Positions 4,396-62,844 of a stretch of 64,000 nucleotides of DNA are shown piece after piece. Where the stretch lies: contig CM028333.1 of the NCBI GenBank assembly GCA_016647705.1, positions 17,853,743-17,917,742 on the forward strand. The letters are read 5' to 3'. Each line of letters starts with the position of its first letter. The stretch's first letter is position 1. This DNA comes from Eucommia ulmoides. Its lineage: Eukaryota > Streptophyta > Magnoliopsida > Garryales > Eucommiaceae. Both the position numbers and the translations under genes were made by a program. The notes under the pieces were generated by a model. It was not told the origin of the DNA. It did not search any database and worked only from the letters and a program-made list of their open reading frames with translations.

Positions 4396-5786
4396 TTTTA
4401 TTCATAATTATCAAATAAAAAAAAATCTCGTCAAACAAGAAGTTTAAAAAAAAGGATCAGGACAGGTAATTTTCTTCTTTTCTTCTTTTTAATTTTCATT
4501 TTTTTTAAATCAAATGGGGCATTAACCGAAAGAGAGTGAAATAATAGTTAGAATGATAGAACGACCGTTTCTGAGAAGGTGACCTAAGCATATGGTGTGT
4601 GTTGGGTTCGGGTACTGAGTAGGGCTCTGCATTTGACTGAAAGGACACAGTGGTCGTCATATATATTATTAATTGTTTCTGCTGCTCCCAATTCCAACTT
4701 ATTTTATTAAATTTTCTTCTCCAGAATTTAATCACCCGAGAGACATTCGCTTTTAAAATCATCTGAAAAAAAATTAGTCAAGACACATGAACTTTGAACT
4801 GATCTGGACACATTTTACCGGTTAAAAAAAAAAAAAAAAAGACTTTGATTCTTTAATTAATAATAACCATTTAACTTTAATTTTTTCAAAAAAAAAAAGG
4901 AAATTTTATGAACCATATAAAATGGAAAATTATTTTTAAAACGTCAAAAAAGAAAAAAAAAATTATTTTCTAAAGGGAAACCAAACAAACCGTTAATTTA
5001 ATGAAAGTGGGATATGGAATGGTGCAGAAGAATGGCAGTCTAGTCTTTGGATAACAAAGTGAAGATTGCCCCCCACCCCCACCACGCCTCCTCCCATCTC
5101 TTTCTTCCATTAAGGAAATGGATTCTCTCTGCCCTTCCCATCCTACCCATTGCCCCATGTCCCCATTAATTAAAATTTTCTAAATATATTTTATTAAAAA
5201 ATAAAATATTCCAGTATTAACAAATAATTCTTTAAAGAAGATTAGTGAGGTAGAGACAATATATAGAATATATTGTACTCAATAATGAACAAGACATAGG
5301 AAGCAAAATCTAACATTTATTCCCACCTCAATTCCAACATAATCTTCTCATGAGATCAAAAGTATTAATTATTTATCATACTCTTATTTTATTTAATGAT
5401 TTGAAATGTTTCCTATGTGTAGATTATGAATTTGTGAAGTTTTTCAAGATAGTTTCTATATGAAAGGAGTTATTTCATTTAACAGTATATGATTTTAAGT
5501 TAAAACTTTCTATCATGATATCAAAGGTGAGTTTGGAAAATCTGGTTTATTTGTCTTCGATTGTTAAAATGTTTGTCTTGTCTCTTCTGTTATTTGATCA
5601 TATCATGTGTAAGGTTGGACGGCACGTGAGGATGAGTATTCGATTATTATATTGAATTTATGGGACTTCTCAAAATAATTCATATATAAAAACAATTAAT
5701 TTATTTAACATCTTATGATTTTAAATTGAAATTCCAATCAATTTATATATTATGTAATACAAATACAAGGTCAATGATAATTGTTG
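4396..5786. other. Noncoding stretch with a faint second TRIM-like relic
   Basis: No convincing gene. About 5410-5520 and 5650-5750 are weak direct repeats sharing the motif ATTTAACAGTATATGATTTTAA in diverged form. The first is followed by TGATATCAAAGG, which resembles a primer-binding site, so this may be another small LTR relic. The end of the stretch (5777-5786, ATAATTGTTG) is the left target duplication of MULE-1. Confidence 0.4.
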
Positions 5787-5930
5787 GAGTTCTTGACCAA
5801 AAAAATGTATTTTAAAAACTTAATTTATGAAAATATTATTCTTTAAACCTATTTACGCAATTGAAGTAAAACGCATTTGGAAAATGCGTTTTTATAAAAA
5901 CGCATATTCAATATGCGTTTAAAAAAAAAA
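5787..5930. repeat. MULE-1 left terminal inverted repeat
   Basis: Matches the reverse complement of 12645-12788 along its length, from GAGTTCTTGACCA through TTTAAAAACTTAATTT to the ACGCAT cluster. ACGCAT/ATGCGT motifs fall near 5871, 5885, 5900 and 5914 in alternating orientation and form small palindromes. Such subterminal arrays are candidate transposase-binding sites (inference). Confidence 0.9.
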
Positions 5931-5989
5931 TGAAAAATGCATTTCTACGTTCGGAAATAAAAAAGAAATCAAAAACGAAAAAAACACAA

Positions 5990-6330
5990 AAACGCAGAAG
6001 AGAGGGTTTTGCAAACAGATTGCCGTCAGCCTCCATTACCTGCCACCGTCGCCGTGAGTTCTCCGGTCGTCTATGCATTTTGATTAGGTAAGCATTTTTT
6101 GGGTTTTTTTTTTTTCATGTATATGTGTGTATATATACGGGTGTACATGTATGTGTGTATATATATATATATGAAATGTATGTGTGTATGAGTTTTTTGC
6201 ATTTTGGTTTATTTTGTGGTTTTCATTTTTTTTTTCTTCAGAAATGTAGATCTCGGGCCTCCGTTGCCGTCACCCACTCCTCCGTCTCCGATCTTGATTC
6301 TCCGTCACCGTCTGTCTCGTTTTGGTTAGT
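5990..6330 (+). promoter_or_regulatory. Probable leader exons of the MULE-1 transposase gene
   Basis: Two GC-rich, CCGTCGCCG-containing blocks (about 5998-6087 and 6241-6324) lie in otherwise AT-rich DNA. The first ends at a good donor (TTAG|GTAAGC) and the second starts after a pyrimidine tract and acceptor (TTTTCTTCAG). This looks like a spliced 5' untranslated leader. MULE-2 has a comparable GC-rich block at about 40785-40945. Exact exon limits are inference. Confidence 0.5.
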
Positions 6331-6847
6331 AAACCAATTTTTTTATTTTTTATTTTTCGGTTTTTTGGTAATTTAGATCTAGATCTATATAATTTGAAAA
6401 TAGTTTTTTTGTAATGTAGATCTAGATCTATAAAATTTGGAAATATAGATGTAGAGTAATTTTTTTCATTTTTTTTTTTTTTTAGTTTTTCGGTTTTCTT
6501 TTGTGTGTGTGTGTGTATTTATTTATTTTTATTTTTATTTTCTTTTAAAAATGTTATTGTAGGTTTATTAGGTTTATATTTATATATTTTGGTTTTAGTT
6601 AAAAATTTATGTTTTGATCTCAATTAGAAATTTTATTTTAGGTTTAAGAAGGAAATTTATTTATGATTAGGTTTGTGTTTGCTAATTATAAACTATTTAG
6701 GTTTATTCGATTTTAACGAATGATAATTAAGTTCTACAGTTTTTATGAAGTTTTAATTGGACAATTTAATTTTTTAGTAACATGATTGATAATTATAATA
6801 ATACCTTACATGTATTGTTTTGATTTGTGAAATTGTAGTTGTTTGAA

Positions 6848-7228
6848 ATAGAGAATGTTATATTATATTTGTATTGGGGTGGAAAGATATTAGAATGAAC
6901 TGAGTTTGTGGTGTCGTATAACATGTCTGCGGTCAAATCGTTGGATGTTTGTCGGGGGATTACGTTAAACGAATTAATTGCGATATTACGACCTTATATC
7001 TTTGAGGATAGAGTTGATAGAATTTTAAAGTTAAAGTGTAGGTTGCCGATAGCTACTGTTGGTCCTGGGAATTATAGACACATGTTGTATTCAATTGGTG
7101 ACGACGCGTCATTAGACAATGTGCTTCAGTTACTCTTAAGGTGCCCTCAATGCTTGGTGTTGAGGTGTATGTCAGTGTATGTCGAGGTAGAACGAGCTTT
7201 TGATCACGCTCTAATATTTTCTTCCTAA
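6848..7228 (+). pseudogene. Transposase N-terminal domain block
   Basis: From 6908 it reads through a segment with DVCRGITLNELIAILRPYI, then YRHMLYSIGDDASLDNVLQL and VYVEVERA. That order (RxGITLxEL, then a DDDxxLxxVL-like segment, then YVEVE) is typical of the PB1-like N-terminus of plant MULE transposases. The expected start lies upstream at 6848 (ENVILYLYWGGKI); the codon there is ATA, whereas MULE-2 keeps ATG at 41920. Confidence 0.8.
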
Positions 7229-7958
7229 CTTGGTCCTTTCACCCAATTTTATCTGGACATTTTTCTTCGTATAATATTCTCATGTTTGACCCCCAAGTTA
7301 TTCAATCCAGTTATACTCATCGGTCGCCTTACATTCCTGAAAAATATCATTCCTATACAGTGATTGATCATGATGCAGGCACCAGTTCCACCGCTCCACA
7401 TCAACATTAGTCACCAATTAGTCCACCGCACGACAACAATTGCAGTAGGTATAATGGGAATGTGGAGGGTGGGACGAATACAATCGATAGTTTCCATGAT
7501 GTTGAACAAACAAAGTTAGATGGTGCTTTTGCGATAGAGGAAGAGGAGAATGGTGGGGATGAAGATGAAGATATGGATGTCGAGCCGACAAGAGAATGGA
7601 GTGAACAATTATCGTTGCACAAGGTTCCTTCATTCTATAATCAGTTGGAATGAGGTGATGATAATGACATGGCAAAGTATGAGTCAAAATTGCGAAAGAA
7701 TTTTTGGACCCCGAAAATGGACGAATTCAATTGTGGCATGGTCTTTAAGGATAAGAAACATGTTCAGAATGCCGTAAAGTATTACCATGTTATAAAAAAT
7801 AAAGAGTATTGTGTGGTGGAGACGAATCTGTAATTTGATCAATTAAATGCAAGCATGGTTGCAGGTGGAGGATGCGGGCGACTCTAAAAAAGAGTCACGA
7901 AATGTTCCAAATTACGCAGTACAACAGGTGACACACGTGTTTCTACAATCATACGGCC

Positions 7959-8996
7959 TTGGCTCATGGAAACTTGGATTCGAGTGTCATTTCTGACATG
8001 ATACTTGGACAGGTCGAAGATGATCCAGAAGTAAATATGGGTGTTATCGTTGTGTTCGTGAAAGAGTCTCAGCGATTTACTATCTTCTACCGAAAGACTT
8101 GGTTGGCTAGATCTAAAGACATCGAGACCTTGTTCGGCGATTGGGATGAATCGTATCGAAAGTTGCCGAAATTAATGTCGGCGTTGCAACACTTTAATCC
8201 TGGGACAATTGTCGAATGGAGTATCGTTCCGACTACTGTAGCTGGTTATTCGACATTCGACATGGTATTTTTGGCATTCCAACCTTTTGTGGTTGAATGG
8301 AGATATTGTCGACTTGTCTTCACGATTGACGGGACCCATATGTACGGTAAGTACGAGGGAAAGATCTTGATCTCTATTGGGATAACACCGTCCAATAAGT
8401 GTTATCCTTTGGCATTCGCGGTGGTACCGACGGAGGACCACAACTATTGGTCCTGGTTTATTTTGATGCTGAAGCGCCATATTGTTAAAGATCAGCCGAA
8501 TGTCACGTTGATATCTGACAGACATACTGGCATTATTAGTGCGGTCAAAATTTTATTACTTAATCAATCGAATGAGCCTGCTCGGTATCATCGATTTTGT
8601 TTGCGGCATCTTTGTAGCAATTTTAACATCTTTAAAAATCAACAATTAAAAGATCTTACTTGGAACGCGAGTGTTGCAATACAAGTTCGAAAGTACAACG
8701 TCATTATGGAAGAGATAAAGAAAATAAAAGTAGGGGCGTATACGTAGTTGGATAACGTAACCAAAGATAAATGGATCAGGTCACACGATGATGGTAAACG
8801 TTGGGGCATGTTGACGACCAACAATGCTGAAGTATTCAACAACTGTTTGAAAGGTGCAAGGAATGTCCCAATTACAACTGTCATTTCGATAACTTTCTAT
8901 AGGTTGGTCAAATACTTTGATCTCGGTCGACAGGAAGCTCTAAAGGACATAGCTATGGGTTTGGGGTACATAAAACATGTCGTTGAGAAAATTTAG
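7959..8996 (+). pseudogene. Transposase catalytic core with DDE residues
   Basis: Counting from 7959, the first catalytic Asp is residue 124 in TIDGTHMYGKYEGKIL (codon 8328-8330). The second is residue 187 in LISDRHTGI (8517-8519). CLRHLCSNF follows, as in MULE transposases. After an in-frame TAG at 8745, where a Trp codon may have stood, the frame continues with TTNNAEVFNNCLKG; its Glu (8829-8831) is the expected third acidic residue in the conserved TTNxAExFN motif. All three acidic residues are therefore still present in sequence. Confidence 0.92.
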
Positions 8997-9155
8997 AAAT
9001 CTCAAGTGAAGTCCAAAACATACGACATCCAAATATTCAACCGGTAAGGTTTTTTAACTTGCAATTTATTAATTGGTAATATTTTTTTTAATAGACCATA
9101 ATATAAATGATTTAACTAATCATCTAATTTGATTTATAAATATATTCAAAAATAG

Positions 9156-9600
9156 GGAGAATGCACATTACCACGTGAAAACGAGAAAGACTTTGTCCGG
9201 TGGTATTGTTACGCACAAAGTTACATCAAATGATAACCCTGATTGTACTTGTGGAGAATATAAGGCTTTCAAATATCCATACTCACACATGCTTGCGGTG
9301 ACGGAGTATTGTGACACAGATGCGTTTCACTACATCCCTCCCGAGTACACAATAGCGAACTTGTTGAAAGTTTGGGAGTCATCGTTTGAACCGATCATTC
9401 ACGAGGACTATTGGCCGGTGGTTAATTTTCCAATCCTTCTTCCTAACAAGATTAGACTTCGAGTTGTGAAGCGCGGACGACCAAAATCCACTCGCATTCG
9501 AAACGAGATAGATGTGTCGCAACGGACAATGACAAATTGGTGTGGGTTATGTTCTCAAACTGAACATGATAGGCGAACATGTCCATCCCGACCCCAATGA
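9156..9600 (+). pseudogene. Transposase C-terminal exon: SWIM-like and CCHC motifs
   Basis: Begins after the AATAG acceptor, and splicing joins FNR to ENAHYHVKT. CTCGEYKAFKYPYSHMLAV is a SWIM-type zinc motif (CxCx(n)CxH) in which the usual third cysteine is Tyr. PPEYTIANLLKVWES is the conserved MULE segment after SWIM. Near the end, CGLCSQTEHDRRTC is a CX2CX4HX4C zinc knuckle. The stop TGA is at 9598-9600. MULE-2 has the same exon, split by a solo LTR. Confidence 0.9.
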
Positions 9601-9852
9601 ATATTCTCAATTAATTAGTATAATTAGTTTGTTTCATTGTAATGGAGATTTCAATTTTTATTTTTAATTTAGTTTATGGTTGTAACAACATTCGTATTGT
9701 GTTGTATTATAAACATAATATTTATTTCATATATTACTAGTTCGTGAAATTTTAGTTTCGGATTAATATTTTTCACACTAGTTTCAAATTTAAATTTTGT
9801 TCAATTAATTAGTTTGTAGACGCCCCAAATTTTTGTTCAGATTATTATAGTT

Positions 9853-12217
9853 ATGGCTGAGCCTGATCCTGTGGATCAGTCGTTACTTTATTTGCAGAGA
9901 GGCCACAGATCTGTGACTGTCTGGGAAGAACGCGGAGTGTAGGTCATACTAAAAAAATATTTAGACGGTGTATTGAATTATTTATTTTTTGTTTAGTATT
10001 GTTTAAATTAATTGTCTTTTAATTTATATTTTAGCATTCTTCTCGACTTAACTGTTCTGAAGCGGGACGATTTTGAGGGCAATGGACGGAATATGTACCC
10101 GGTCGCGTGGTACAATTAATACAAGTCGTCAGACTGTATAAAGCTTTTCGGTTAAGGAAGAAGCAGTTAGACCACGTATTGATTATCGCGTTGGTCGAGA
10201 GATGGCGTCAAGAGACGCATATGTTTCATCTTTTGACTGGTGAGATGACAATGACACTGCAAGAAGTAACAGTGTTATTTGGGTTGCCCGTGAATGGACG
10301 ACCAGTTACCAGGCCTGAGGACACATTACTGATCCCACGTTGGTAGGAACTTTGCCAAAACCTCCTTGGTCACACATCTCCAGAGGAAAAAATCAACGGC
10401 GACTGTCTGAAACTGAAATGGTTACAATCTACTTTTGATTGTATACCCGTCAACGCCGACGAGGGCATTATACAGTGTTACGCCAGGGCATACTGCCTGA
10501 TATTGATCGGCACAATGTTGATGCTGGATAAATCAAATAATTTGGTTAAGTTAGCTTACTTACCACTACTGCACGATTTGGTTGGGTCGCATCCATATAG
10601 ATGGGATAGTGCCACTTTAGCAGTACTATACCGTAAGCTATGCAAGGGATGTCGTAAGAAGACAAAAAAATTCCGGAGCCCTCTTCTTATTACAGTGTTG
10701 GGCATATGAACGACTCCCAAGACTACGACACATGTCTCTCTCTACAACTGGCAATTGGATGGATGACCTACAGATAGGGGACTTGAGGTTCCCAGGCACC
10801 CCTTAGGGGTCTCGGTACATTATTATATAATAAATGTTTAGGCATTTCAAATATTTCATTTCATGTAGTAATAATTAATTTTTATTTTTGCATACAGTTG
10901 GAAAGTATCTTTCAATTCAGATAACGAGCTGATGAACGTATTAATTGTGTATCCTGATCAATCAAATCGTCTACAGGATAACGATATCAGTTATACCTTT
11001 ACGTAAGATGTTAATAATTTTTATTTATGATTATATTTATTATTTAATTAATTTATTTGTATCTTGTTTGCAAGGTGATTTGGATGACGTATCTAGCTGA
11101 CCTCTTGGAGCAATTACCAGCATATTGTAGGGATGGCCAAGCAATTTGGATGACGTTTCTACTCTTAATATGCTACGAAATTGTAGAGTACCATTACCCT
11201 TATCGTACTCTACGACAATTTGGATTTCGCCAAGGGATTCCATAGCTAAGCGACACGTATAAGGATTTGCATTTGAATAGCCGGAGAGGAAAATTTGGTA
11301 CAGACTGGTCAATAGTGCACGGGGCATATATACGGGCATGGGATAGCTGGCGACCACCTGATTTGAGTAACCTTCAGGTTGGTACAAGCGTCCTTGATGA
11401 TTACATGCCCTGGTACTAGGGAGTCACTAGACGGCTCATAGTGAACCCATCTTACCGACCAAACTTCGGCTATCATGCAGTAGGAGGTCATCCGACGATA
11501 GAGGAATAATTTAATTAGAACATATATTTATTATTCTGTGTAATGTTCATTTACTTAGGTGCAATCAACTTTATGTTGCAGGAACCAGATATTTCTACCT
11601 TGATGCGTATGAGCGAGCTTGCATTGCGAACAAGACAACCAAGAGATTTTGAACAGGTTACACACTTATCGCACAACATTTATTCCTGGGCCTATCGTCG
11701 GCAGTTGTCATACCAGATGTCGAGTGATGTTGCTCCAGGACAGGAGCACAGACTAGATCCATCGTTGGAGTCGTCTTCCAAGTTTGCCGTAAACTAGGAT
11801 GATGACGTGTACTGAGCAGGCGATACAGTAATGGATGGCGCCAGTGCTGGACCATCTACGTACGGGATGGACAATTTTTTTTCAGATTATGGCACCGAAC
11901 TGGGTGTCAGTTGCGGACTGTCACTGGGTAGCACATTTGTCACCCCGATGATGGAGCATCCATCAACAAGCTCAATACCCATTCTTAGTGTGACACATGG
12001 AATACCTAGTAGAATTCAAAGACATGTGTTGCCGGTCCCTTGGGCGCCAAACGATGAACATTTGTTGCCCATCGTGAAGGAACCGTTGTATCCATCTACC
12101 ATGGATTTGGGATGCATTACTCAAGTCGATCATCTTCAGGCAAATGAGACGGAAGAACTTTCACTTCCTTTATGGCGACAACGGAGAAACATCAAACATA
12201 GGGGGTGTAGTACATAG
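9853..12217 (+). pseudogene. Plant mobile domain (PMD) gene carried by MULE-1
   Basis: The second MULE gene, about 250 bp downstream of the transposase stop on the same strand. It starts at ATG 9853 (MAEPDPVDQSLLYLQRGHRS). Inferred introns are 9943-10034, 10815-10897 and 11003-11074. Family-typical segments are LVERWRQETHMFHL, GEMTMTLQEVTVLFGLPVNG, IIQCYARAYCLILIG, DSATLAVLYRKLCKG, ICYEIVEYHYPYRTLRQFG and FGTDWSIVHGAYIRAWDSW. The tail ends with a basic RQRRNIKHRGC peptide at 12217. PMD proteins include Arabidopsis MAIN and MAIL1, nuclear proteins involved in silencing and meristem maintenance; TE-borne PMD genes are known. At least one frame change near 10105 and several stops make it a pseudogene. 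Its role in the transposon is unknown. Confidence 0.88.
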
Positions 12218-12644
12218 AACCCAATGACATGTATTATAATTTGTAGAAATGTATTATATATACACGTGCATTTTTTTTTCACATTCCAATTAGTGTAAAA
12301 GTGTAATTTTATTTCCATTCCAATTAGTGTGAATTTTATTTTTTATTTTTTATTTTTTAAATGCATATGTTATTTACATTTTTTGTGGGATCATTTTACA
12401 CTAATCAGAAAATGGAAAAGCAAATTATATTTTTTTTTTGCGTTTTTGGTCCACACCACACTGTAGGCGTTTTTTTTTTCTTTTTCTTTTTCTTTTTTTT
12501 TCCATTTTTTTAAACACAAACATAAAAACGTAAAAGCGTTTTGCGTTTTTGAAGAAACGCAAAAAGCTTTTGCCTTTTAAATAAAAACAAATTAAAAACA
12601 TATTTCTGAGCAATCATAGAAACGCATTTTAGAAATGCGTTTTT

Positions 12645-12788
12645 CATTTTTTTTAAACACATATTGAATATGCGTTTTTATAAAAACGCATTTCTCAAAT
12701 GTGTTTTACTTCGATTTCGTAAATAAGTTTGAAGAATAATGTTTTCAGAAATTAAGTTTTTAAAATACATTTTTGTGGTCAAGAACTC
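12645..12788. repeat. MULE-1 right terminal inverted repeat
   Basis: Partner of the left repeat. ATGCGTTTTTATAAAAACGC sits within it, in the same spacing as on the left. Further TGCGTTTTT/AAACGCA motifs extend inward to about 12465, giving a longer, looser subterminal zone than on the left. Confidence 0.9.
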
Positions 12789-12798
12789 ATAATTGTTG

Positions 12799-40495: not shown

Positions 40496-40620
40496 GAGTT
40501 CTTTACCATATAATTACATTTTAAATAAAAAAATTCTGAAAAATGGTATATTCAAACTTATATTCCGATTCTTTATAAAACGCAGATTGGTATTGCATTT
40601 TTAAGCCAAAAAAAAAAAAG
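40496..40620. repeat. MULE-2 left terminal inverted repeat
   Basis: Complementary to 57645-57797 continued by 62173-62186. Shared segments are TTTTAAATAAAAAAATTCTG, GGTATATTCAAACTTATAT and the AACGCAGATTGG region. AAACGCA/TGCGTTT motifs continue inward to about 40765. Confidence 0.85.
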
Positions 40621-41090: not shown

Positions 41091-41919
41091 AAGTGTAGAT
41101 CTAGTTTTTTTTTGGAAATGTAGATCTAGGTTTGTATGTGTATGCTTTTTTTGTTTATATATTTTGGTTTTAGTTGAAAATTTATTTTTCAATTTTAATT
41201 AGAAATTTTATTTTTGGTTTTATAAGGAAATTTGTTTATATTTCGGTTTTAGTTAGGATTTATGACTCTCGTTCATAAGTAGATAAGTTTGTTTCTTTTC
41301 TCAATCGCAATATTATTTTTTTGCTGATTATTAATTGTTTAGGTTTGTATTTACTAATTATTAATTGTTTATGTTTATTATCATAATAAATACATTTTAG
41401 AGAAAACCTACTTTAACTATGTATTTTGTAATTTGAACACTTCAAAACATGAAGTATCCAAGATTTATAATATGTATTTTTATTGTTATGTTTTTCTGTA
41501 ACAATTTTTTTTTGTTAGAGATTGATATTAATTTTTAGTAGATTTAAGGAACTATTTGTTTCATGAAATTGAGAGATTTGGAATAAAAATGTGATTTTTT
41601 TATTTTTTTTTTCACATGTCAAATTCAACATATACTCTTAATTTACACTTTGCACCCCCAAACTGATGAAAAATTGATTCAACATTATTGGTTAGATGTT
41701 TGAAATTGTTAGATTCTAGTTTGTGTACTTAAAAAGGCATTTGAATAAGTAATTGTGTATATCTAACTTAAGATTTAATGAATGAAAATTAATTTCAACA
41801 GTATTTATTGAGTTTTAATTGGGTAATTGTTTTTTTTTTTTTTTTTTAATAGCATGATTGATAATGATAATAATATTTTATTTGTTTTGTTTTGATTGGT
41901 GAAATTGTAGTTGTTTGAA

Positions 41920-44548
41920 ATGGAGAATGTCACATTATATTTGTAAGGAATTGAGTTTGGTATATCATATAGTATATCTACAGTCAAATTGTTAGATGTT
42001 TGTCGGGGGATTACCTTAAACGAATTGATTGGGATGTTACGACCTTATATTCTCGATGATGGAGTCGATGGAATTTTGAAGTTAAAGTATAGTTTACCGA
42101 TAGCTACTATTGGGTTCGAAAATTATAGATACATGTTGTTTTCAATCGATGACGACGCGACATTAGACCATGTGCTTCAGTTATCGCTTAAGGTGCCCTC
42201 GCTGCTTGGTGTTGAGGTGTATGTCGAGGTAGAGCGAGCTTTTGACCACGTTTCAATAATTTCTTCCCAACCTGGTCCTTTTACTCAATTTTTAGGTTAA
42301 AGTTTCAATCCTCATGTTACCGCGTTATCTGGACAATTTTCTTTGTATAATGTTCCCATGTTCGACCCCCAAGTTGTTCAATCCAGTTATACTCACCGAT
42401 CGCCCTACATTTCCCAAGAATATTATTCCCATACAATGATTGACCGTGATACAGACACTAGTTCTGCCACTCCACATCACCATTATTCGCCAAGTAGTCC
42501 ACCGCACGATAACAAGTGTGGTAGGTATGATGGGAACGTGGAGTGTGGGCCAGTTACAGTCAATAATTTCCACAACGTTGACCATACAGATTTAGAAGAA
42601 GCTGTTGCGTTGGAGGATGAGGAGAATAATAGGAATGGAGATGAAGATATGGATATCGAGCCGAGCCAGCAAGGGAGTGAACAGTTTCCATTGCACAAGG
42701 TTCTTTTATTCTATAATTAGTCGGAATGGGGTGATGACGATGACATGGTAAAGTATGAGCCAAAGTTGTAGAAGAATTTTTGAAACCCGAAAATAGACGA
42801 ATTCTGTAGTGACATGGTCTTTAAGGACAAGAAACATGTCTAGAATGCCATGAAGTATTATCATGTTATGAAAAATAAAGAGTTTTATGTGGAGACGCAC
42901 CCTAAAGTTTGGTCGGTTAAATACAAGCATGGTTGCAGGTGAAGGATGTGGGCGACTCTGAAAAAGAGTCACAGAATGTTCTAGATTACGTAGTACAATG
43001 GGCGACCCACATGTTTCTACAATCATACGGCCTTGGATCATGGAAACTTGGATTCGGGTGTCATTTCTTGCATGATACTTGGATAAGTTGAAGAGGATCC
43101 AGAAGTGAAGATGGATATTATCGTTGCCTCTGTGAAAGAGTCTTGGGGATTCACCATCTCCTACTAAAAGGCTTTGTTGGCTAGATCTAAAGCCATCTAG
43201 ACCTTGTTCTGCGATTGGGACGAATCGTATTGGAAGTTGTAGAAGTTCATGTCGGCATTGCAACACTTTAATCCTGGGACGATTGTCGAATGAACTATTG
43301 TTTCGATTGCTCAACCTTGCTATTCGACGTTTGACATGGTATTTTGGGCATTCTAACCTTCTATGGTTGGATGGAGATATTGTCGGCCTACCCTCACGAT
43401 TGACGGGACCTATATGTATGGTAAGTACGAGGGAAAGATCTTAATTACCAATGGGATGACACCGTCTAATAAGTGTTATCCTTTGGCGTTCGTGGTCATA
43501 CCGACGAAGGACCACCACTGTTGGTTTTAGTTTATTTCGATGCTGAAACGCCATATTGTTAAAGATCGTCCAAAGGTCACGTTGATATCTGATAGACACA
43601 TATGCATTATTAGTGCGGTCAGAACTTTATGGCTTAATATACAGAATAAGCCCGCTCGGTATCATTGATTTTGTCTTCGACACCTTTGCAACAATTTCAA
43701 CAACAAGTGTAAATATCAATTAAAAGATTTTACTTGGAATGCTGGTGCTGCTATACAAGTTCTAAAGTATAATGCCATCATGGAAGAGATTAAAAAAAAT
43801 AGATACGCGGGCGTATACGTAATTAGATATCGTTACTAAAGATAAATGGATCAGCGCACACGATGATGGTAAACATTGAGGAGTGTTGATGACTAACTAT
43901 GCTGAACTATTCAACAACTATTTAAAAGGTGCAAGGAATGTCCCAATTACAGCAGTCGTTTCAATAACTTTTTACATGTTAGTGAAATATTTTGATCTTG
44001 GTCGATAGGAAGCTCTAAAGGACTTGGTCATGGAATTGGGGATATGTAAAACATGTTGTTGAGAAAATTCAAAAATCTTAAGCCAAGTCCAAAACATACG
44101 ACGTCCAAATATTCAATTGGTAAGGTTTTTAAACTTACAATTTATTAATTATTTAATTTTTTATATTTATAAAACAAATGATGCACCTCATTATTTAATT
44201 TGATGTATAAATATATTCAATAATAGAGAGAATGCACGTTACCATGTGAAAACTAAAAAGACTTTGGCCGGTGATATTGTTACACTCAAAGTTACTTTAG
44301 AGGATAACCCTGATTATACTTGTGGGAAATATAAGGTTTTCAGATATCCATGGTCATCGTTTGAACCGATCATTTACGAGCACTATTGGCTGGTGGTTAA
44401 TTTTTAGATCCTTCTTCTTAACAAGAATAGACTTCGAGTTGTGAATCCCGAACGACCAAAATCCACTTGCATTCGAAATAAGATGGATGTGTCATAGAGG
44501 ACAATGACAAATCAGTATGGGTTGTGTTCTCAAACTTGCCATGATAGG
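41920..44548 (+). pseudogene. MURA-like transposase pseudogene (MULE-2)
   Basis: Keeps the ATG at 41920 (MENVTLYL) that MULE-1 lacks, but a stop follows within ten codons. Recognisable blocks are DVCRGITLNELIGMLRPYI (42000s), an acidic linker ending DMDIEPSQQ, MVFKDKKHV, LTIDGTYMYGKYEGKIL (about 43393-43440), LISDRH (about 43590), the TTNxAExFN region and the same intron (about 44120-44226). More than a dozen stops are scattered through it, so it is far more decayed than MULE-1. The SWIM region is shortened. The solo LTR at 44549 interrupts the zinc-knuckle codons. Confidence 0.9.
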
Positions 44549-45963
44549 TGGTAGCGGAATATTACATCACTACTTTTATCGCAAGTGTACGGGTCAAGTT
44601 TTAATAGAATAGTGATGAGTAGGGTTGTCGTATCCACAAAGATTGGATTAAATTGTTGTTAAGTATCTTGATTGTCATAACCAAATTTTATCTAGAAGAT
44701 TTAATTTTAGGGTTTTTATAGAAATAATAAAACTAAACTAATTAGCTAATTAAACTATAATACTAATATTGACATTGATGGGAGTATATTGTCTAGGGAT
44801 TAACTTCATTCACTAATACGTGTTCGATTCAATCTATTTTACATTAACGACATTCAAACTATTCGACAATCTAGGTATCGAAAACTCACTCACTGCCTCT
44901 CCCGAGTGTAAAGTGAATGAATATGCGACTTTGCGTCAACGTTGATGTCCCCATCTAGCGTCTAAATGACACTGATCACATGAGTCTTCCCTCAATCTCA
45001 CGGATTGCGTACTTTCTAATACTCTCCCGAGTCATTAGATCATCACGTTGCGTTTAAACCCTAGTCTGAATTTGGGATTACCTCTCCCGAGTGTCAAACC
45101 CCGTATTCTCAAAGCAACCAATATATCATAACAAGCATATAATGGAAGTAATAAAAAGGTAAACACAATCGGATAAAGATAAACAACTGTTAACAAAATA
45201 TCAATTTATTTAAACCAAGTTTTCATGAACAAGTCACTCCCTAGACAATAAATGTTTATCTACACAAGAGATAGCTAATATTCAACAATACAAGAGATAA
45301 ATATCATCAAAACAACCAACCAAAGCTAAAAAAAATAGAGAAACATGGGAGAATAGCCAAATCTGAAGAACGGGCGATTCCACATGCATTAAGTCCGTTC
45401 CAATCTTGTTTTATCCTCTACAAATGGATGATACTCTTGGTTGGTATGGTCTTGGAGTTGTCAAGACACTTCCAAAAACGTGCATTAGGTGTTAGGGGAA
45501 GAGAGGATATCATAGGGATCCAAAATATTACAAAACATATCTCAAAATATCTTATCTAGGTGGATCCAAACCGCTGCAGCGGTGGGAAGCACCGTTGCAG
45601 TAGTGGGAAGTCAGTAGGTCCATTGAACTTTCACTACTACAGCGGTGAAGGCCACCACTACAGTGGTGGTCTCTTAGCCGTAATGTTCTTTTCCGAACTC
45701 CAATTGAGGTGATTCAAAATTCTATGAAAAGTTAAGACATAGATCTACAACTTTCATGTTTCCAGATTTTTGAAAATCGGATTGCATCATTGTAAAAAAT
45801 GGCCTTGAAGTTACTGCACCTGACCAAATTTTCATTTTTCCACCCATTTATTCAAAACCTATAAAATAATATAAGCACACATTAAACTAACAAAAATTCT
45901 TGAAAACACACAAATATTTAAATCTAAAAGTACTTGATTTGTCAATAAATAAACCACTCATCA
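44549..45963 (-). mobile_element. Solo LTR fossil in the MULE-2 transposase exon
   Basis: Starts TGGTAGCGGAATATTACATC and ends AACCACTCATCA, flanked by ATAGG at 44544-44548 and 45964-45968. On the minus strand it begins TGATGAGTGGTT, the style of a Ty3-type LTR seen in several eudicots (inference). No interior remains. It interrupts the zinc-knuckle exon of MULE-2. Part of it recurs at 54395-54702. Confidence 0.82.
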
Positions 45964-46357: not shown

Positions 46358-47510
46358 ATGGATGAGCCTAGACCCGTGGATCAGTCGTTACTTTATTTGC
46401 AGAGTGACCACAGGTCTGTAGTAGTTTGGGAAGAACGTGGGGTGTAGGTTGTACTAAATACAGATTTAAGCATTGTACTCATTTTTTTTTTCTTTTATAT
46501 TTTTTAATTGATTGTCTTTTAATTTATATTTCAGTATTGTTCTCGGCTTGACTGTTCTGGGACTGAAAGGTTTCTAGGTCGATGGACGGGATATTTTCCT
46601 GGCCGAGTGATACAGTTGATACAAGCCACTGGTCTGTACGGTGTTTTTCTCTTACAGAAGAAGTAGTGAGACCATACATTGATTATCGCGTTGGTCAAAA
46701 GATGGCATCAAGAGACATATACGTTTCATCTTCCGATTAGAAAAATGACGGTAACACTGTAGGACATAGCAATGTTATTTGGGATGCCTGTGAACATACG
46801 AGTAGTTACTGGGCTTGAGGACACTCTATTGGTCTCACGTTGGTAGAAATTTTTCCACGACCTCCTCAGCCACACACCTCTAGAAGACAAAATCAAGTGT
46901 CGCTGCCTGAATCTGAAGTGACTACAGACTACGACAAAATTGTGTACCCACCGGCGCTGATGAGCGCATTATACAGTGTTACGCCCACACGTACTACCTG
47001 ATATTGATCGGCACAACGTTGATACCGGATAAATTAAATAATTTACTCAAGTTAGGCTACTTACCACTGCTGCGCGATTTGATTGGGTTGTAGGGGCAGT
47101 GCCACGCTGGCGGTGCTATACTGGGATCTATGCAAGGCATCACGTAAGGAGACAAAAAATATGTTCGGACCCTTCTTTTTATTACAGTGTTGGGTATGGG
47201 AGCGACTCCTGATGTGTCTCTATCTACAACTACCGATAGGATGGGTGACCTAAAGATCGGGGACTTTAGGTGCCCAAGCGCCCTTAGGGGGTCTCAATAC
47301 ATTATTATATAATTAATTTGTATGTATTTCAAATATTTCATTTCATTTAGTAATATTTAGTTTTGGTTTTTGCGTACAGCTGGAAAGTGTCTTTTAATCT
47401 GGATAGCGAGCCGATGCATGTATTGAATGTGTATTGGGATTAGTTAGATCGTTCACAGAATGATGATGTCAGTTATAGATTTATGTAAGATGTTACTTTT
47501 GTTTATTTAT
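46358..47510 (+). pseudogene. PMD gene, N-terminal part (MULE-2)
   Basis: ATG at 46358 (MDEPRPVDQSLLYLQSDHRS). Exon 1 ends near 46447. It continues after a TTTCAG acceptor at about 46532 and includes the segments matching LVERWRQETH, GEMTVTL and CYARAY of MULE-1, with several frame changes and stops. The segment after the next intron starts WKVSFNLDSEPMHVLNVYW (about 47380). It is interrupted in the following intron at 47540 by an RTE LINE, and the C-terminal part is not seen in place. Confidence 0.82.
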
Positions 47511-47691: not shown

Positions 47692-48495
47692 GTGTTCCCT
47701 ACAAACGACGCATTATATTTACACCGGCCAGATATAGTGAATAACGAGAAAGGGTGGGTTAGGTCAATGCCTAGAAGAGACGTGCCATGTTTTCGCCCAG
47801 ATACAATGTTAAATGAGAAAGGGTTTCCACATTATGGTGGACGGGTTCGGATAAAAAAGTTAGTCCATGAAAATAGGCTTAGGTTGGCAACTTGGAATAT
47901 AGAAATGCTGACGGGTAAAACTCGAGAATTGGTGGATGTGATACATAGGAGGAGGATTAATATTCTATGCTTGCAAGAAACTAAGTGGGTTAGAGAAAGG
48001 TCTAGAGAAATTGAGAGTACGTGGTATAAATTATGGTATACGAGAAAGAACAAACATAGGAATGGGGTGGGCATCATGGTAGATAGGGATTTAAAGAATA
48101 GCGTTGTTGATGTTAGGAGAATTGGTGATAGGATGATGGTTATGAAATTGGTGATTTGAGGGGAGGTGAGTAACGTTATTAGTGTGTACGCTCTCCAAGT
48201 TGGATTGCAGAAAAATGTTAGACGAAAATTTTGGGAGAAAATGGACGAAGTCGTTTAAAGTATACCTAACCAAAAAAAAATATTTATTGGGGGAGAGTTG
48301 AATGGACAGGTTGGGAGAGAAAATGGGATTTTCGAGAAAGTACATGGTGGTTATAGATTTGGAGAGGAGAATGCAATGGGTGAGATGATTTTAGATTTTG
48401 CTATGGCGTATGATTTAGTTATTCTAAATATATGTTTCAGGAAGAGGGATGAACACCTTATTACATTTAAAAGTGATAAGAGGAATAGCTAGATA
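47692..48495 (+). pseudogene. RTE LINE endonuclease
   Basis: RLRLATWNIEMLTGKTRELV, INILCLQETKWV, LWYTRKNKHRNGVGIMVD and RRIGDRMMVMKLVI are in the canonical order of the RTE apurinic-like endonuclease, with WNIE and QETKW as catalytic/metal-site motifs. After a stop at 48157 another frame holds ELNGQVGRENGIFEKVHGGYRFGEEN (about 48296-48375) and, near the end, the RKRDEHLITFKS segment. GELNG stands where GDFNG is usual. Confidence 0.9.
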
Positions 48496-54702: not shown

Positions 54703-55560
54703 ATAGGCAGACATGTCCATTCAGACCCCAATGAGTATTCTCAATTAATTTGTTTGTTTCATTGTAATGGAGACAACAATTTTTATTTTTAATTTAGTTT
54801 ATGTTTATAACAATATTTATATTATGTTGTTTTCTATTGTCATTTGTTGATAAACGTAATATTTATTTCATATAATACTAGCTGATGAAATTTTAGTTTT
54901 GTACTAACAATTTTTACACTAATTTCAGATTTTTTATTAGAAATGCAAACGGGAAAAAAAAATGAGAATAAAAAAAATATAAGGCCCAAATATGATATAA
55001 ATTACAGCGAAAAATCTAAATAAAATTTTAGTATAGTATTTTATTTTAGGTTGTGTAGATACATCATATTTTGTGTAGATGCTCCAAATTTTTTTTCGAA
55101 TTCTTGCAGTTATGGATGAGCTTGGATCCGTGGATCAGTCATTACTTTATTTGCAAAGTGACCACAGGTATGTAGCAGTTTGGGAAGAATGTGGAGTGCA
55201 GGTTGTACTAAATACATATTTCAGCATTGTACTCAATTTTTTTTTCTTTTATATTTTTTAATTGATTATCTTTTAATTTATATTTCAGCATTGTTCTCGG
55301 CTTGACTTTTCTCGGACGGGAAGGTTTCCAGGTCGATGGACGGGACATGTTCCCGGCCAAGTGATACAGTTGATACAGGCCACTGGGCTGTACGGTGTTT
55401 TTCTCTTACAGAAGAAGTAGTTAGACTACACATTGATTATCACGTTGGTCGAGAGATGGCGTCAAGAGACACATAAATTTCATCTTCTGACTGGAGAAAT
55501 GACGGTGACACTATAGGACGTAGCAACGGAGAAACATCAAACTTAGGGGGTGTGGTACAT
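54703..55560 (+). pseudogene. Duplicated MULE segment with PMD fragment
   Basis: Matches 45964-46770: the end of the transposase exon, the spacer, and PMD exon 1 (ATG at 55111, MDELGSVDQSLLYLQSDHRY). This copy reads VQVVL past the point where the others have a stop at the exon end. PMD exon 2 follows from about 55291. At about 55525 the sequence jumps from the GxMTVTL region straight to the last codons of the PMD gene (GGAGAAACATCAAAC; the terminal basic tail in MULE-1), so the central and most C-terminal PMD domain is deleted. Confidence 0.8.
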
Positions 55561-55890
55561 AGAACCCAATGATATGTATTATAATTTGTAGAAATGCATA
55601 TAATTTAATTTAATATGTACATTATTTAATAACTTATGAAGTTCTTTAGAAAGTTGTTGATCTACGGTAGACCAATAACTTTCTGAAACATATGGTACGT
55701 AACATCAAGAAGGTAGTCACATGAAAACGCATAACAAATACAATACATAAGAAATATAGTACGTAACATCACAAAAGTAGTGACATTAAAACAAAAAACA
55801 AATAAAATAAATAACAAATACAGTACGTAACATCACAAAGGTAGTCACATGAAAGCACATAACAAATACCGTACAACTAGCTAAATATAT

Positions 55891-56379
55891 TTATACTTCG
55901 TTCGATATGTATCCCTCAAACAAGTAATCGTTGTCCGTCATCACATTATTGTATTCATTTTGAGAGAGTGTTCTGTTACTTGCGACAACCATTTTATTGG
56001 CAAGTTGGAGTAGATAATATCGACTCATTCACAACAACATTCGATTATTCTTCATACGAATTCGTGTAATAGAATCTTCTATCTTACTTGTATCATTAAT
56101 TTGATATCTGTGAGGCATCTGAAAACTTCAATGATGCAGAACAGGTGCATTAAGAGCTCTCAAATAATTTACAAGGTTGTTAGCCTCTTTTACCCTATAT
56201 TTCTACTCTTGCCGTAGGCCGACACGATACTCTATCGGACTAGTGTCTTGATTGGTCCAATAGTCGATGGGTTCGTGGGATGTTATTACAGATATAACTA
56301 GTGTTCAACGACCACTAGATCTCTCTGATGCATGGATGAATCCCATCATGAGGAACTGAACTTTCTTAGTACACGGTGA
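55891..56379 (-). pseudogene. Unknown coding-like tract Z in MULE-2 (minus strand)
   Basis: One minus-strand frame stays protein-like for ~162 codons with four internal stops. It includes QFLMMGFIHASERSSG, SHEPIDYWTNQDTSPIEYRV, KEANNLVNYLRALNAPVLHH, ANKMVVASNRTLSQNEYNN and an acidic end MTDNDYLFEGYISNEV followed by TAA. I do not recognise the family. It lies downstream of, and tail-to-tail with, the PMD remnant. MULE-1 has no counterpart. It may be an extra MULE gene or captured host sequence. Confidence 0.45.
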
Positions 56380-57797: not shown

Positions 57798-59539
57798 CTA
57801 GCGTATAACCCGTGCCTGAAGGCACAGGTGTAAAACAAAACAAAATAAAATAAAAAATTGATCTATTTCATTTAAACATCAACAATAATTAACAATCAAG
57901 ATTAACAACATACACCTATTTAATTTGAATATCAATAATAACTAACAATTGAACATTACTAATAATTAACAATGAAGATTAAAACTTGTATCGATATAAA
58001 ATAAGAAGATTATATATTCTTTACAAATACATATTATTTATATACTACATAGAGCTTTTTATAAATTCTATTTTTTATTCAGGATAATGACACTTTTGAT
58101 CCCTCACAAATGTAATCGGTGCTCAATTAGACTCCCAAATTTGAAAATAGACACATTGGCTCTTTGACATTTCAATTTTGTTTTGATTTTGCTCCAATAC
58201 TATTCAATGATAACGACCAAAAAGTATTTGTCATTGTACGTTCAAATCTAATTTCAACTATTCAACCTACATAGATTAATGCACCCCGTTATTTTTAAAA
58301 TTAATTTTTTTACCCAACTTTTTAAATAATTATATTTATATCCCACCTTACCCCCACCCTCTCAACAATGCCATTGCCACCACCACGAACTAAAAAAGAA
58401 ACTTTAATTTAAATTAAAAAAAAAAAAAACCAAAAGAAACTTCCACTTCGAATTGTAATAATTTAAACCAATAGTTTAGAGTAAAACAAACAAATTGTAT
58501 AAAAAGTCAAAAATCTGAACAAAACAATGCTAAATATTGAAATTAGAATAATGGAATAAAAGAACCATCAAATTGTTAGTTTTCTTTCATCGTCAAATAA
58601 TTTCAATGAACCACAATTAAACACAAATTAATAATATACATACAAATTTATAAAAAAAAAAATGACAAAAAAAACATGTTTCTCAAGTTTTTAACTCTCG
58701 TTTTTCAAGTGAACAAAACAATAATAGACATTTAAAAAAATAGCATACCTTGTTTTGTTTATATAATATCCCTCAACCCTAGGTTTTTAATTTATCTCGA
58801 TCACTGTCCGATACTGAAGTAGTATAGAAATTTGCGAGCTGCAAAAATGATTGACAATAATATGGAAACAAAAACACATCAAATCAATATATTAAAAACC
58901 GAAAATGATGATCAACGAAGGATATAAAAGCAATAAATTTTCAAACTCAAAAAATAGAAGTTGAGCACGCAATACAGATATAGATCATTCAACAACAAAA
59001 CACATAAATGCTTACCTTACCTGCTTCAATTCTCAAAAGCACGGGTTTTAATTTTTTTCCCATGCCTTTATGGGTTTTAATTTTTTCATTGTTAAGTTAA
59101 TGGCTAATTTAATATAAAAAAATATAATTGATTAAGTAAAATGAACAATACAACGCACAACCCATACATAAAATACTAAGTTAAAGATACTGGGATAAAA
59201 ATAAATTCTCCATTTATACATTCTAAAATTCAAACCATATTCTTATATAAAATTTTAAAAAATATATTTTTTATTTTTTATAAGAATCATTATTGATTTG
59301 GAGTCAAATCAATCTGATTTCATGGAACAACCGAGTGTACCGAATTTCAAAGTCGAAAATGGGCACACCATAAAACAGGCAAACTGGGTTTTCCACCTAA
59401 AAAGGTAGACCCAAGGCACCGAGATGATAATTTAATGTTATGTAAAACATGAAAAATTAATCAAAAATGCCCAAAGAGCTCTATGAAAGGTATGTAATAG
59501 GAAAAATTAAAAGAAATAAAAATAATTAGTCATAAAAAT

Positions 59540-59875
59540 TTGTTCATAAAGATTAGAATCTATATCTTGGTCTCCTCAACTCAACCACATTGTTTTTTAT
59601 GCCATTCAAAACCACCATTGCTGTCAACTTTAGTTGCCAATAATCATCAACCCTCATAGTGGCCGCTAAGACATCCATCTCCATGCTTCTAGAACACAGA
59701 AAATCTTTGGCACCAATTGCCACGTCACTCTCTCTTTCTCAAGAACATGTACATACTCAATTGTATCCTCCACGATCATCTCTCTTGGCCTACGAATTTT
59801 AGAGAGATTATAATCAAAAGAACTGATTTTAGTAAAAATTAAACTAATGCACACAAACAAAAAGAGAAAATTCAA
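59540..59875 (-). pseudogene. Captured exon-like fragment, possibly bHLH-derived
   Basis: Minus-strand reading gives SKIRRPREMIVEDTIEYVHV followed by LEKERVTWQL. The pattern IVxDTIEYVxxLEK resembles helix 2 of plant bHLH domains. After a frame change the strand continues MEMDVLAATMRVDDYWQLKL, then TAMVVLNGIKNNVVEL, plausibly the same parent gene. The basic region and loop are not evident. A Helitron-captured gene piece is the simplest reading, but homology is judged from a short motif only. Confidence 0.35.
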
Positions 59876-60639
59876 CCAAATTATTGACTGATATTTATGT
59901 TTAGTTTAGAGAGAGAGAGAGAAAAAAATATAGAGGGAAATGGAGCCTTCGAGATTTTCGGTGAAAGTCGTTTCAAAGAATTTATTGGTTGGAGAATTAT
60001 CTGCAAATATCGAACATAAATATTTTGAACACACAAAATATAACAAAATCGACAGATAAGACATTTAAAATAAGGTGATATGAACTCCGAGAGTTAGGGC
60101 GATACTACCTTGACGAAAAAGAAGCCATGAGCTGTGTTCTCCGGCTAGGTATGGGCGAGGGGCAAAAACAGTAAACAAACACCATCTAAATAAATAATAA
60201 ACAAAAGCCATCAAAGAAAAAATAGGAGTAAACTGAATCCTGAGAACAAAAACACAAATCAGATGCATTCCAGTTCCAAGTTTTCTGTGAACAGAAGCAT
60301 CAAAACAGAGCTATTGTTTTTTTTTTTTAAAACAGAAAACAAAAACAGTTCTTTGGGAACATAAAACCGAAACTAAAATAGAACATCAATTTATGAACCC
60401 AATTTTTCTTTGGGTACAAAAACAGAAAAAGAAACAGTTTTTTGGGAACAGAAAACAATTTTTTATTTTTAATTTTTTGGGTAAAGAATATAGAAACAGT
60501 AATAGAACATCAATACTCGTAATAGTTCACCAAAAAATCTAGAAATAGTATAAGCTCTATTTGTATTAAAAAAAACAGGAAATTGGGAACAAAACAAAAA
60601 CAAATCTCACATTATATATAGCAAAAACAAAATTGAATC

Positions 60640-60725
60640 GACATACCTAAAAACAAAATTGAAACAATTGAGTTTCAACCCCTCTGCCACCCTTAAACCT
60701 CGGGCATTGACAAAACTCTGCAACA
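60640..60725 (-). other. Possible captured internal exon in the Helitron
   Basis: On the minus strand, CTCTGTTGCAG-like acceptor context precedes a block reading SFVNARGLRVAEGLKLNCFN, then a donor-like AGGTATGTCG. It is GC-richer than its surroundings. Parent gene unknown. Confidence 0.3.
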
Positions 60726-61099
60726 AAAAACATCTCCTAATTGGTATTATGTGTAGACTATGAAACAAACCCCTGTAGAGGAAAGATGAAATACATGGTG
60801 AGAAATCTGGTGAGAGGGCGATGGATACCCTCATATCAAATCAAATCACCTTAGAATTCGACACAATTTCATAATCCAATTTTAATGCAATGAAATTAAG
60901 ATGTATAAACAGGCATTTCATCAAACATGTGGTGCTCAATATGAAATCAATAGCTGAGTGAAATTAATATGAAATCAGATTGCTGTTTTCATACAAAATT
61001 GGTGAATAAAATCAGTAACCTAATTATTGTCAAACATTTGAAGATGGAAATAGAATGGAAATTGAAATTCGCAAACATCAGAATACAAATTCGTAATCG

Positions 61100-61980
61100 A
61101 AATAGAATGGAGATTGACCTTAGCAGTTGATCATCTGAAGCGACGCCGATTATTGTGAGGCAGTGTGCGTCTAATGTGAGGGGCTTATGGATGCGAGATG
61201 GAGGCAATGTGTGTTTGATGTGATCGTCCAAAGGGACTGAGTTTGGTTCAACGAAGGGATTGTGCTTCGATGGTGATTGTTGCGAAGAAGCTATGCTTCG
61301 GTGAAAGGGCAATGAAGCAGAGATGCTATGATGATAGCGATGGAAAGACGATGGGATCGATCAAGTCCCTGAGTCAAGGAACCCCAAATTAAAATTGAAA
61401 GGAATAAAAATTAGAAACCGTAAATCAGAAAATCAAAAAAATAAAAATTCTGGGACAAATACTTACCATGAAGGCCGAAGGGACTGAGTTTGGTTCGATG
61501 AAGGGGCAGTGTTTCGATGATGATTGTTCAATCAAGAGACAATGGAGTAGGGATGGCGTGGTGATGGCGATGGTTGGCGGTACGACAGCTATTATTCTGG
61601 CGATGAGAGAGCAACCCTAATTTGGAGAGGGCACAACGGTAGAGAAAGAGCAACCCTAATGTGGTAGAGAAGGAAATCGAAGAGTGACAGTGGCGACTGG
61701 ATTTGTGCATGTGTGAAAGAAAGAGAGGATCGGCTGTCTCAAACCACCGTATCATCATACGCCGTCCGGATCAAACCACGGATGGCCATCGCCATCTAAA
61801 TCCGGCCAAGTCGACGGCAACGGCTACTACGACAGATTGGGGCGACGATGGCGATGGTGAACGGCGATTGTGAAGGAGCTCCGCAAATATTATGGAGGCT
61901 ATGAATTCGGCGGAGAAGAAGAAGAATCCGTGGAATGGGGAAGAAGATAGTACCCGCGGAGTCCATGAAGTAAATACAAG
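61100..61980 (-). repeat. GC-richer exon-like zone with internal duplication (Helitron)
   Basis: AAAGGGACTGAGTTTGGTTC at about 61228 recurs as GAAGGGACTGAGTTTGGTTC at about 61479, each followed by a diverged CTTCGATGGTGATTGTT-like segment (~65 bp in all, ~250 bp apart). The end near 61780-61980 is GCGACGATGGCGATGG-rich. On the minus strand this zone lies nearest the Helitron 5' end and could be leader/first-exon sequence of captured genes. Confidence 0.5.
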
Positions 61981-62844
61981 CAAGGACACTGTTGATGATG
62001 GTAAGTGTTAAAAAATTAGGTTGATGGTAAGTGTTGCATGTTGTATATTATAGATATATTATATAGATATGTTGTATATAGATGTTGTATATATCCAGAG
62101 ATATCCAACGGCTACGAATATCCAGAGACATCCAACGGCTCTGGATATAAATGAGTTGATTTATTATATAAATGGTAAAGAACTCCTTAAATTTATGGAA
62201 AAGACGAGAAATTAAATTTGTGTTTGTTATGATAATATTCTATCTTATATTGTGTATTTAATCTTATTTTATTTTTCATATTGAAATAATCTTAGGAAAT
62301 ATTTTTATTTTATAAATTTTGTTTGTTCTGTGAATTTGCATACATTGATCTATATTTTATTGTGATATTTTATATACAAATCTATTTTATTAATTAGTAT
62401 TCTAAGTGTATATGTTGTTGATGGCATTAACATTATTTTTATCCTAAAATGGAGATATATACTTTGAAAATGTGAGAATTATGTATGGATATATATTTAA
62501 ACGGAAAAATGATTTTTTTTCATTTTCATCTTACAAAGTAACTTATTATTATAGTTTTTTTATAAAGCTTTTTATTATATAGTCCTTATTTAAGAGATGA
62601 TATAGAAAAAATCCCAAATAAAGAGTTGTCTTACCTTTGGACCTCACAATACAATTAGTTTAGTCCTCAATATCTAATAAAATATTATGAATAGACAAAT
62701 ATACCCCTGTTTATATTACAAACAAAACTCTCTCTCTCTAACCTTGCTCACATTCACCCGCACACTCTCACATAAACAGTTTACTCTTCTCCCTCTCCAA
62801 ATCGTAACCTCTCTCCAAACAGTCACTCCACTCTGAAGACGATG

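Follow-up and report, generated by a model that had tools for sequence, protein, structure and literature searches.

Eucommia ulmoides is a eudicot, and its genome holds a large family of Mutator-like elements (MULEs) in which the transposase gene is accompanied by a second gene, encoding a plant mobile domain (PMD) protein. We analyzed a stretch of 64,000 nucleotides (GenBank assembly GCA_016647705.1, contig CM028333.1, positions 17,853,743 to 17,917,742 of the forward strand; hereafter the window), in which the element at positions 5787-12788 is an old, dead copy of this family. The autonomous form is presumed to carry two separate genes, transposase and PMD, on one strand. The PMD gene is very probably a selected helper and not passenger DNA. 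The explanation that best accounts for the data, and to which we give about an even chance, is that the window element is a dead copy of a two-gene MULE family whose PMD is a selected helper opposing silencing.

Structure of the window element

The element is flanked by a target site duplication and bounded by terminal inverted repeats that match at 91% over 161/159 bases in a self-comparison of the window; the E value of 8e-59 excludes a chance match. Terminal inverted repeats of MULEs are counted as long when over 100 bp, and target duplications are expected at about 9-11 bp. The repeats of the window element (161 bp at 91%) and those of L032, a near-intact copy (373 bp at 83%), are both long in this sense. 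The features of the element are as follows.

5787-12788, 7002 bp: whole element, MULE transposase gene followed by PMD gene, both on one strand
5777-5786, no strand: left target site duplication ATAATTGTTG, exact match to 12789-12798
5787-5947, plus strand: left terminal inverted repeat, beginning GAGTTCTTGACC, 91% match with the right end (161/159 bases)
6839-9043, plus strand: transposase (MURA-like) exon 1, interrupted by stops and frameshifts; tblastn with the L032 transposase matches 6839-9044; Pfam MULE E = 1.8e-15
9156-9600, plus strand: transposase exon 2, with SWIM-like zinc finger, C-terminal zinc knuckle and TGA stop (alignment of copies)
9853-9942, plus strand: PMD exon 1, starting with ATG; last codon TAG here, CAG in L032
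10035-10814, plus strand: PMD exon 2, most of the domain, frameshifted (alignment, L032 comparison)
10898-10985, plus strand: PMD exon 3, donor site gone in the window copy (alignment of copies)
11075-11503, plus strand: PMD exon 4, donor site gone in the window copy (alignment of copies)
11582-12217, plus strand: PMD exon 5, ending with a conserved basic tail (alignment of copies)
12630-12788, minus strand: right terminal inverted repeat, 91% to the left end
12789-12798, no strand: right target site duplication ATAATTGTTG, exact match to the left copy

An earlier note on this DNA had described a complete MULE with an exact 10-bp flanking duplication, inverted ends of about 140 bp, and a MURA-like gene with its DDE acidic residues in tandem with a PMD gene. 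The duplication is indeed exact, the tandem order on one strand holds (with PMD homology judged against L032), and the inverted ends are present at the length given above. Completeness applies to the ends and not to the genes, both of which carry in-frame stops and frameshifts. Relative to L032, in-frame stops number 6 in the transposase (over 865 of 868 codons) and 7 in the PMD gene (over 667 of 678), and there are frameshifts as well. In the alignment, the splice-donor GT of the L032 PMD gene is gone at two sites, reading AT at 10986 and GA at 11504. Within the transposase, the MULE domain PF10551 is recognized over its full 99-position profile (E = 1.8e-15), and two of the acidic residues are found, in the TIDGTH and LISDR motifs; the SWIM-like zinc finger falls under the Pfam cut-off in this copy.

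Near-intact copies and gene architecture

In L032, the transposase comprises 868 codons with the stop, or about 864 amino acids from the first ATG, in two exons without an internal stop. The PMD gene encodes 677 amino acids in five exons, its four introns are all GT-AG, and its own ATG lies 162 bp past the transposase stop. Pfam assigns MULE (PF10551, 3e-16), DBD_Tnp_Mut (PF03108, 4.7e-7) and SWIM (PF04434, 9.5e-8) to L032, together with PMD (PF10536, 1.5e-61 and 8.1e-18); the MULE transposase domain is thus present by Pfam in both the window copy and L032. At E up to 0.1, the L032 PMD matched PMD and otherwise only DUF1985, under the cut-off, and PMD exon 2, compared with PDB chains, returned chance matches only (E about 0.8). 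The transposase stop is conserved in 5/5 aligned copies that reach its position. On this conservation and on the separate ATG in L032, both known from genomic sequence alone, we rejected a fusion of PMD with the transposase, a spliced fusion being improbable. Ending PMD exon 3 at GTAAG was also rejected on a frame conflict, the donor GTCAGT yielding an open frame.

L034 has no stop in transposase or PMD across the codons compared, and stops over both genes number 3 in L031, 3 in L033, 5 in L036, 1 in L037 and 1 in L039. Coding-DNA identity among the seven near-intact copies (L031-L034, L036, L037 and L039) is 96.6-99.0%, a sign of recent movement, and the family is apparently both large and recently mobile. 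Gene trees place L035, L038 and L030 in a second branch. Among 14 copies, the target duplication is an exact 10 bp in 7 (the window element, L011, L017, L027, L013, L014 and L015) and matches at 9/10 positions in L032 and in a second family member in the window (40496-62185, described below). None was convincing in L031, L009, L010, L012 and L018, whose ends may be mis-set.

The PMD protein terminates in a basic tail, RRQRRNIRRRGCGT in L032 and RRGRRNVRRRPCGT in L030, that is conserved across subfamilies although the sequence preceding it has diverged. This conservation suggests that the PMD protein is nuclear. L030 is rearranged: its PMD and transposase are encoded on opposite strands and are separated by the open frames X0 and X1. 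PMD, X0 and X1 occupy a block (L030:1131-5655; C8:6030000-6039900) that is inverted with respect to the usual gene order and flanked by a 92% inverted repeat bearing the transposase 3' end. Neither X0 nor X1 matched a Pfam family at E up to 0.1, and X1 was found in the second element of the window (54% at the amino acid level) and nowhere else among the 49 loci compared.

The PMD gene is retained alongside the transposase

Genome-wide pairing was done on the best-scored transposase places (n = 146) and PMD places (n = 150), and the overall figures are lower bounds. By position of the listed matches, PMD lies downstream on the same strand in at least 88 of the 146 transposase places. The spacing is 1.6-2.2 kb in 86 of these 88 pairs and 4.8 and 8.1 kb in the other two, the PMD of the 8.1-kb pair possibly belonging to a neighbouring element. 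Position alone paired 45 of the best 50 transposase matches. The remaining five, considered as candidate loci without PMD, are the window copy and four other places; this candidacy was rejected, PMD being present in the window copy and, on reading, in 4/4 of the others. PMD is therefore found downstream on the same strand in 50/50 best transposase matches. In the reverse direction, a listed transposase accompanies PMD in 45 of the top 50 PMD places, and in at least 87 of all 150.

Searching the genome with a PMD profile yielded a list of 143 matches, with the best 117 of 2460 candidates scored. The transposase adjoins PMD in 10/10 element-sized PMD places examined (L030-L039), PMD being inverted in L030; L029 and L041-L045 are short pieces and were compared as PMD sequence only. 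A genome search with the left end, which favors ends resembling the window copy, gave 72 matches, with the best 40 of 646 candidates scored. We examined 20 regions around end matches, each of at most 10 kb, so that distant parts could escape. Ten of them contain PMD sequence (L009-L012, L016-L019, L026 and L027), several being internal-deletion derivatives (e.g. L009, L010 and L017), and one (L023) has a transposase fragment only. The earlier note had held that PMD would be passenger DNA if most family copies with the same ends lacked it; the 50/50 retention alongside the best transposase matches speaks otherwise.

PMD and transposase are under similar purifying selection

Ratios of nonsynonymous to synonymous divergence (dN/dS) were calculated pairwise by the Nei-Gojobori method for 26 pairs per gene, with bootstrap intervals; codon-position counts restricted to the two copies in the window carried too much noise. 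Between L032 and six near-intact copies, dN/dS is 0.27-0.52 for the transposase and 0.28-0.48 for PMD, and over 10 near-intact pairs the ranges are 0.27-0.65 and 0.28-0.58, respectively. Comparison of L032 with L030, L035 and L038 gave 0.15-0.21 for the transposase and 0.20-0.23 for PMD, values that are rough at a dS of 1.0-2.0. Five relic pairs (drawn from the window element, L011, L012 and L027) gave 0.54-0.74 and 0.49-0.68, which is what decay after a period of constraint would produce.

Changes were also divided into shared ones, present in two or more copies, and copy-specific ones, polarized by majority and not by tree. With relics and near-intact copies taken together, the ratio of nonsynonymous to synonymous changes (pN/pS) for shared changes is 0.39 (0.31-0.48) in the transposase and 0.45 (0.39-0.53) in PMD; for copy-specific changes it is 0.77 (0.65-0.91) and 0.91 (0.77-1.07). 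In near-intact copies alone, shared versus single changes gave 0.33 versus 0.57 for the transposase and 0.21 versus 0.61 for PMD, the shared changes being few. Both genes behave alike in every such split. C-to-T/G-to-A changes account for 365/650 copy-specific relic changes in the transposase and 375/758 in PMD, in line with methylation decay. We conclude that PMD is under purifying selection about as strong as that on the transposase. The second outcome raised by the earlier note, a neutral PMD beside a constrained transposase, did not materialize, as the dN/dS pattern is the same in both genes.

Several observations weigh against a selected PMD helper. Nine of the 20 end-matched regions match neither gene, and such elements must be moved by others; gene-less members with family-type ends, such as the 0.6-kb L013, are as expected of non-autonomous derivatives. 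Among the 10 near-intact pairs, the bootstrap interval of dN/dS includes 1 in 3 for the transposase and in 1 for PMD, and in relics alone the contrast between shared and single changes is weaker (transposase 0.52 versus 0.71, PMD 0.51 versus 0.80). The PMD protein evolves faster than the transposase, with a dN between L032 and L035 of 0.374 versus 0.216. The two gene trees have 6/13 splits in common: they agree on recent clades and on the L030-L035-L038 branch, and show supported conflicts in the joining of the second window member and relics to that branch (97 and 100) and in the partner of L026 (81 and 95). These conflicts could stem from unequal rates or from recombination between copies. 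Finally, one codon of PMD exon 2 is a stop in 6/10 aligned rows (TAG in the second window member, the third PMD piece of the window, L011, L018 and L026; TAA in L016) and is kept as CAG in 4 (the window element, L012, L019 and L027), so that PMD-broken copies may have been moved in trans or C-to-T decay may have occurred repeatedly.

Possible roles of the PMD protein

According to the available parts of three papers, MAIN and MAIL1 act with PP7L in transposon silencing, and transposon-borne PMDs have been suggested to be counter-silencers (PMC5418596, PMC8616336, PMC7156037). The earlier note had proposed that PMD occupies the helper or anti-silencing place in this family. A general helper role is supported by the 50/50 retention and by a dN/dS like that of the transposase; an anti-silencing step falls somewhat short of an even chance. 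In such a step, the PMD protein would enter the nucleus, as its conserved basic tail suggests, and, as a relative of MAIN/MAIL1, would compete with or poison the host MAIN/MAIL1 complex with PP7L. The element would consequently stay transcribed, and PMD would presumably raise the element's own success.

It is possible, if not probable, that PMD is instead selected as a helper in transposition itself, acting in cutting, insertion or nuclear delivery. In each of the 50 best transposase matches, PMD and transposase adjoin on one strand, with 162 bp between them in L032, and the constraint on PMD is as large as that on the transposase. However, it has no likeness to a known transposition accessory protein in Pfam at E up to 0.1, and the PMD relatives studied in the available parts of PMC5418596 and PMC8616336 function in silencing. 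We favor interference with the MAIN/MAIL1 pathway over a role in transposition because of the basic tail, the silencing role of MAIN/MAIL1 and the published counter-silencing proposal. Both the conserved tail, in suggesting a nuclear protein, and the constraint on PMD would also suit a targeting or chromatin factor, one that directs where the element inserts or brings host complexes to its ends and does not oppose silencing, a role that we consider unlikely. That PMD is passenger DNA, captured by chance in the manner of Pack-MULEs, is highly improbable and was rejected on retention with the transposase and on constrained dN/dS: MULEs do capture gene pieces and the PMD of the window copy is dead, but the gene is kept in 50/50 best transposase matches and across subfamilies with dS above 1, has no stop in L032 and L034, and its shared changes are constrained.

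Origin of the PMD gene

The transposon PMD was compared with other Eucommia PMD loci, among them L041 and L043, which we take to be MAIL-type host genes and which were compared as 2.3-2.5 kb pieces. Over exon 2, it is 54% identical to L043 and 42% identical to L041. L029, which belongs to a tandem array on C4, shows 23% identity to it. This array (C4:2507473-2604771) comprises at least nine PMD matches that lack intron gaps; seven matches are free of stops, and six of those span the whole domain. An intron near amino acid 30 is present in the transposon PMD and L041 and one near amino acid 320 in the transposon PMD and L043, and the L041 match likewise begins at 320. A further intron, near amino acid 251, is found in L043 and apparently in L041 and is absent from the transposon PMD. 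This pattern of intron sharing agrees with a host gene having been captured at the DNA level. Tentatively, a eudicot MULE may have taken a MAIN/MAIL-type gene as an independent second gene, whose product would be a dominant-negative anti-silencing factor acting against MAIN/MAIL1/PP7L, and the rearranged branch of L030 and the second window element may have added helper genes X0 and X1.

A second family member in the window

Self-comparison and homology identified further pieces of the family in the window.

40496-62185, plus strand: second family member, heavily interrupted (window self-comparison); left end GAGTTCTTTACCAT at 40496, with the right end continuing at 62174-62185
41917-44548, plus strand: transposase of the second member, broken (homology)
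46358-47470, plus strand: incomplete, broken PMD of the second member (homology)
55112-55585, plus strand: third PMD piece, within the second member, consisting of the 5' part and the last ~60 bases (homology)
55897-56373, minus strand: gene X1 remnant, within the second member, 54% at the amino acid level to L030:2023-2574

The target duplication of this member is ATTAAATTTA/CTTAAATTTA, with 9/10 positions equal, and the exon-2 stop codon noted above lies in its segment 46322-46933. An insertion occupies 44549-45963, between the end of the transposase and PMD, and part of it recurs from 54401 together with the PMD start (87%). A 155-amino-acid open frame at 47692-48159 resembles the endonuclease of long interspersed nuclear elements, as judged by eye. 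A Helitron-like insertion (~57802-62173) interrupts the right end and on the minus strand shows a hairpin, then CTAG with a T after it at the junction; the canonical TC start was not seen at its opposite end.

Relation to known systems

MuDR of maize is likewise an autonomous Mutator element of two genes, one of them encoding the transposase. Its mudrB is not a PMD gene, is convergent with mudrA and is thought to help transposition, whereas the second gene of the Eucommia family is PMD by Pfam (L032) and follows the transposase on the same strand, with the inverted L030 as the exception. Host proteins of the MAIN/MAIL kind have the same domain; the Eucommia PMD differs in residing in a transposon and in lacking the intron near amino acid 251 of L043. 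VANC21, carried by VANDAL21, is a protein different from PMD. VANDAL21 is a DNA transposon with its own anti-silencing gene (PMC8616336, available part), and the same could be said of the Eucommia family only if the putative role of its PMD holds.

PMD-carrying MULEs were known before. The domain was originally described from a rice MULE, and fusions of PMD-C to MULE transposases are reported from grasses and Amborella (Ikeda et al. 2017, PMC5418596, available part). From these fusions, the same authors proposed that captured PMD genes serve MULEs in countering silencing, so that anti-silencing use has been published as speculation. These PMD-C MULEs share with the Eucommia family a MULE transposase and a PMD, which is of the MAIN/MAIL kind there and for which host-gene capture was proposed; a PMD is likewise encoded here, as PF10536 in L032 and as homologous exons in the window copy. 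They differ in that PMD is fused in grasses and Amborella, while in Eucommia, a eudicot, it is a separate gene after a conserved stop, with near-intact copies. In eudicots, PMD-C is described as mainly genic (Nicolau et al., PMC7156037, available part), and in tea 175 phased small interfering RNA loci are reported at PMD genes (PMC10673657, available part). A candidate sweet potato report was set aside, as 'PMD' in its available part denotes a cloning vector and not the plant mobile domain (PMC3946583). Our literature search, with most subscription papers and Repbase outside it, brought up no eudicot MULE family reported to carry PMD as a separate gene. What is new here is the large eudicot family, its separate PMD gene, the purifying selection on that gene, and a rearranged relative with extra open frames.

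If interference with MAIN/MAIL1 is true, PMD would serve as a weapon in an arms race, constrained but changing more quickly than the transposase. An open, separate and selected PMD gene in a eudicot, with copies 96.6-99.0% identical, provides a clean system for the anti-silencing idea. Annotated 'PMD genes' in other plant genomes may likewise be transposon genes.

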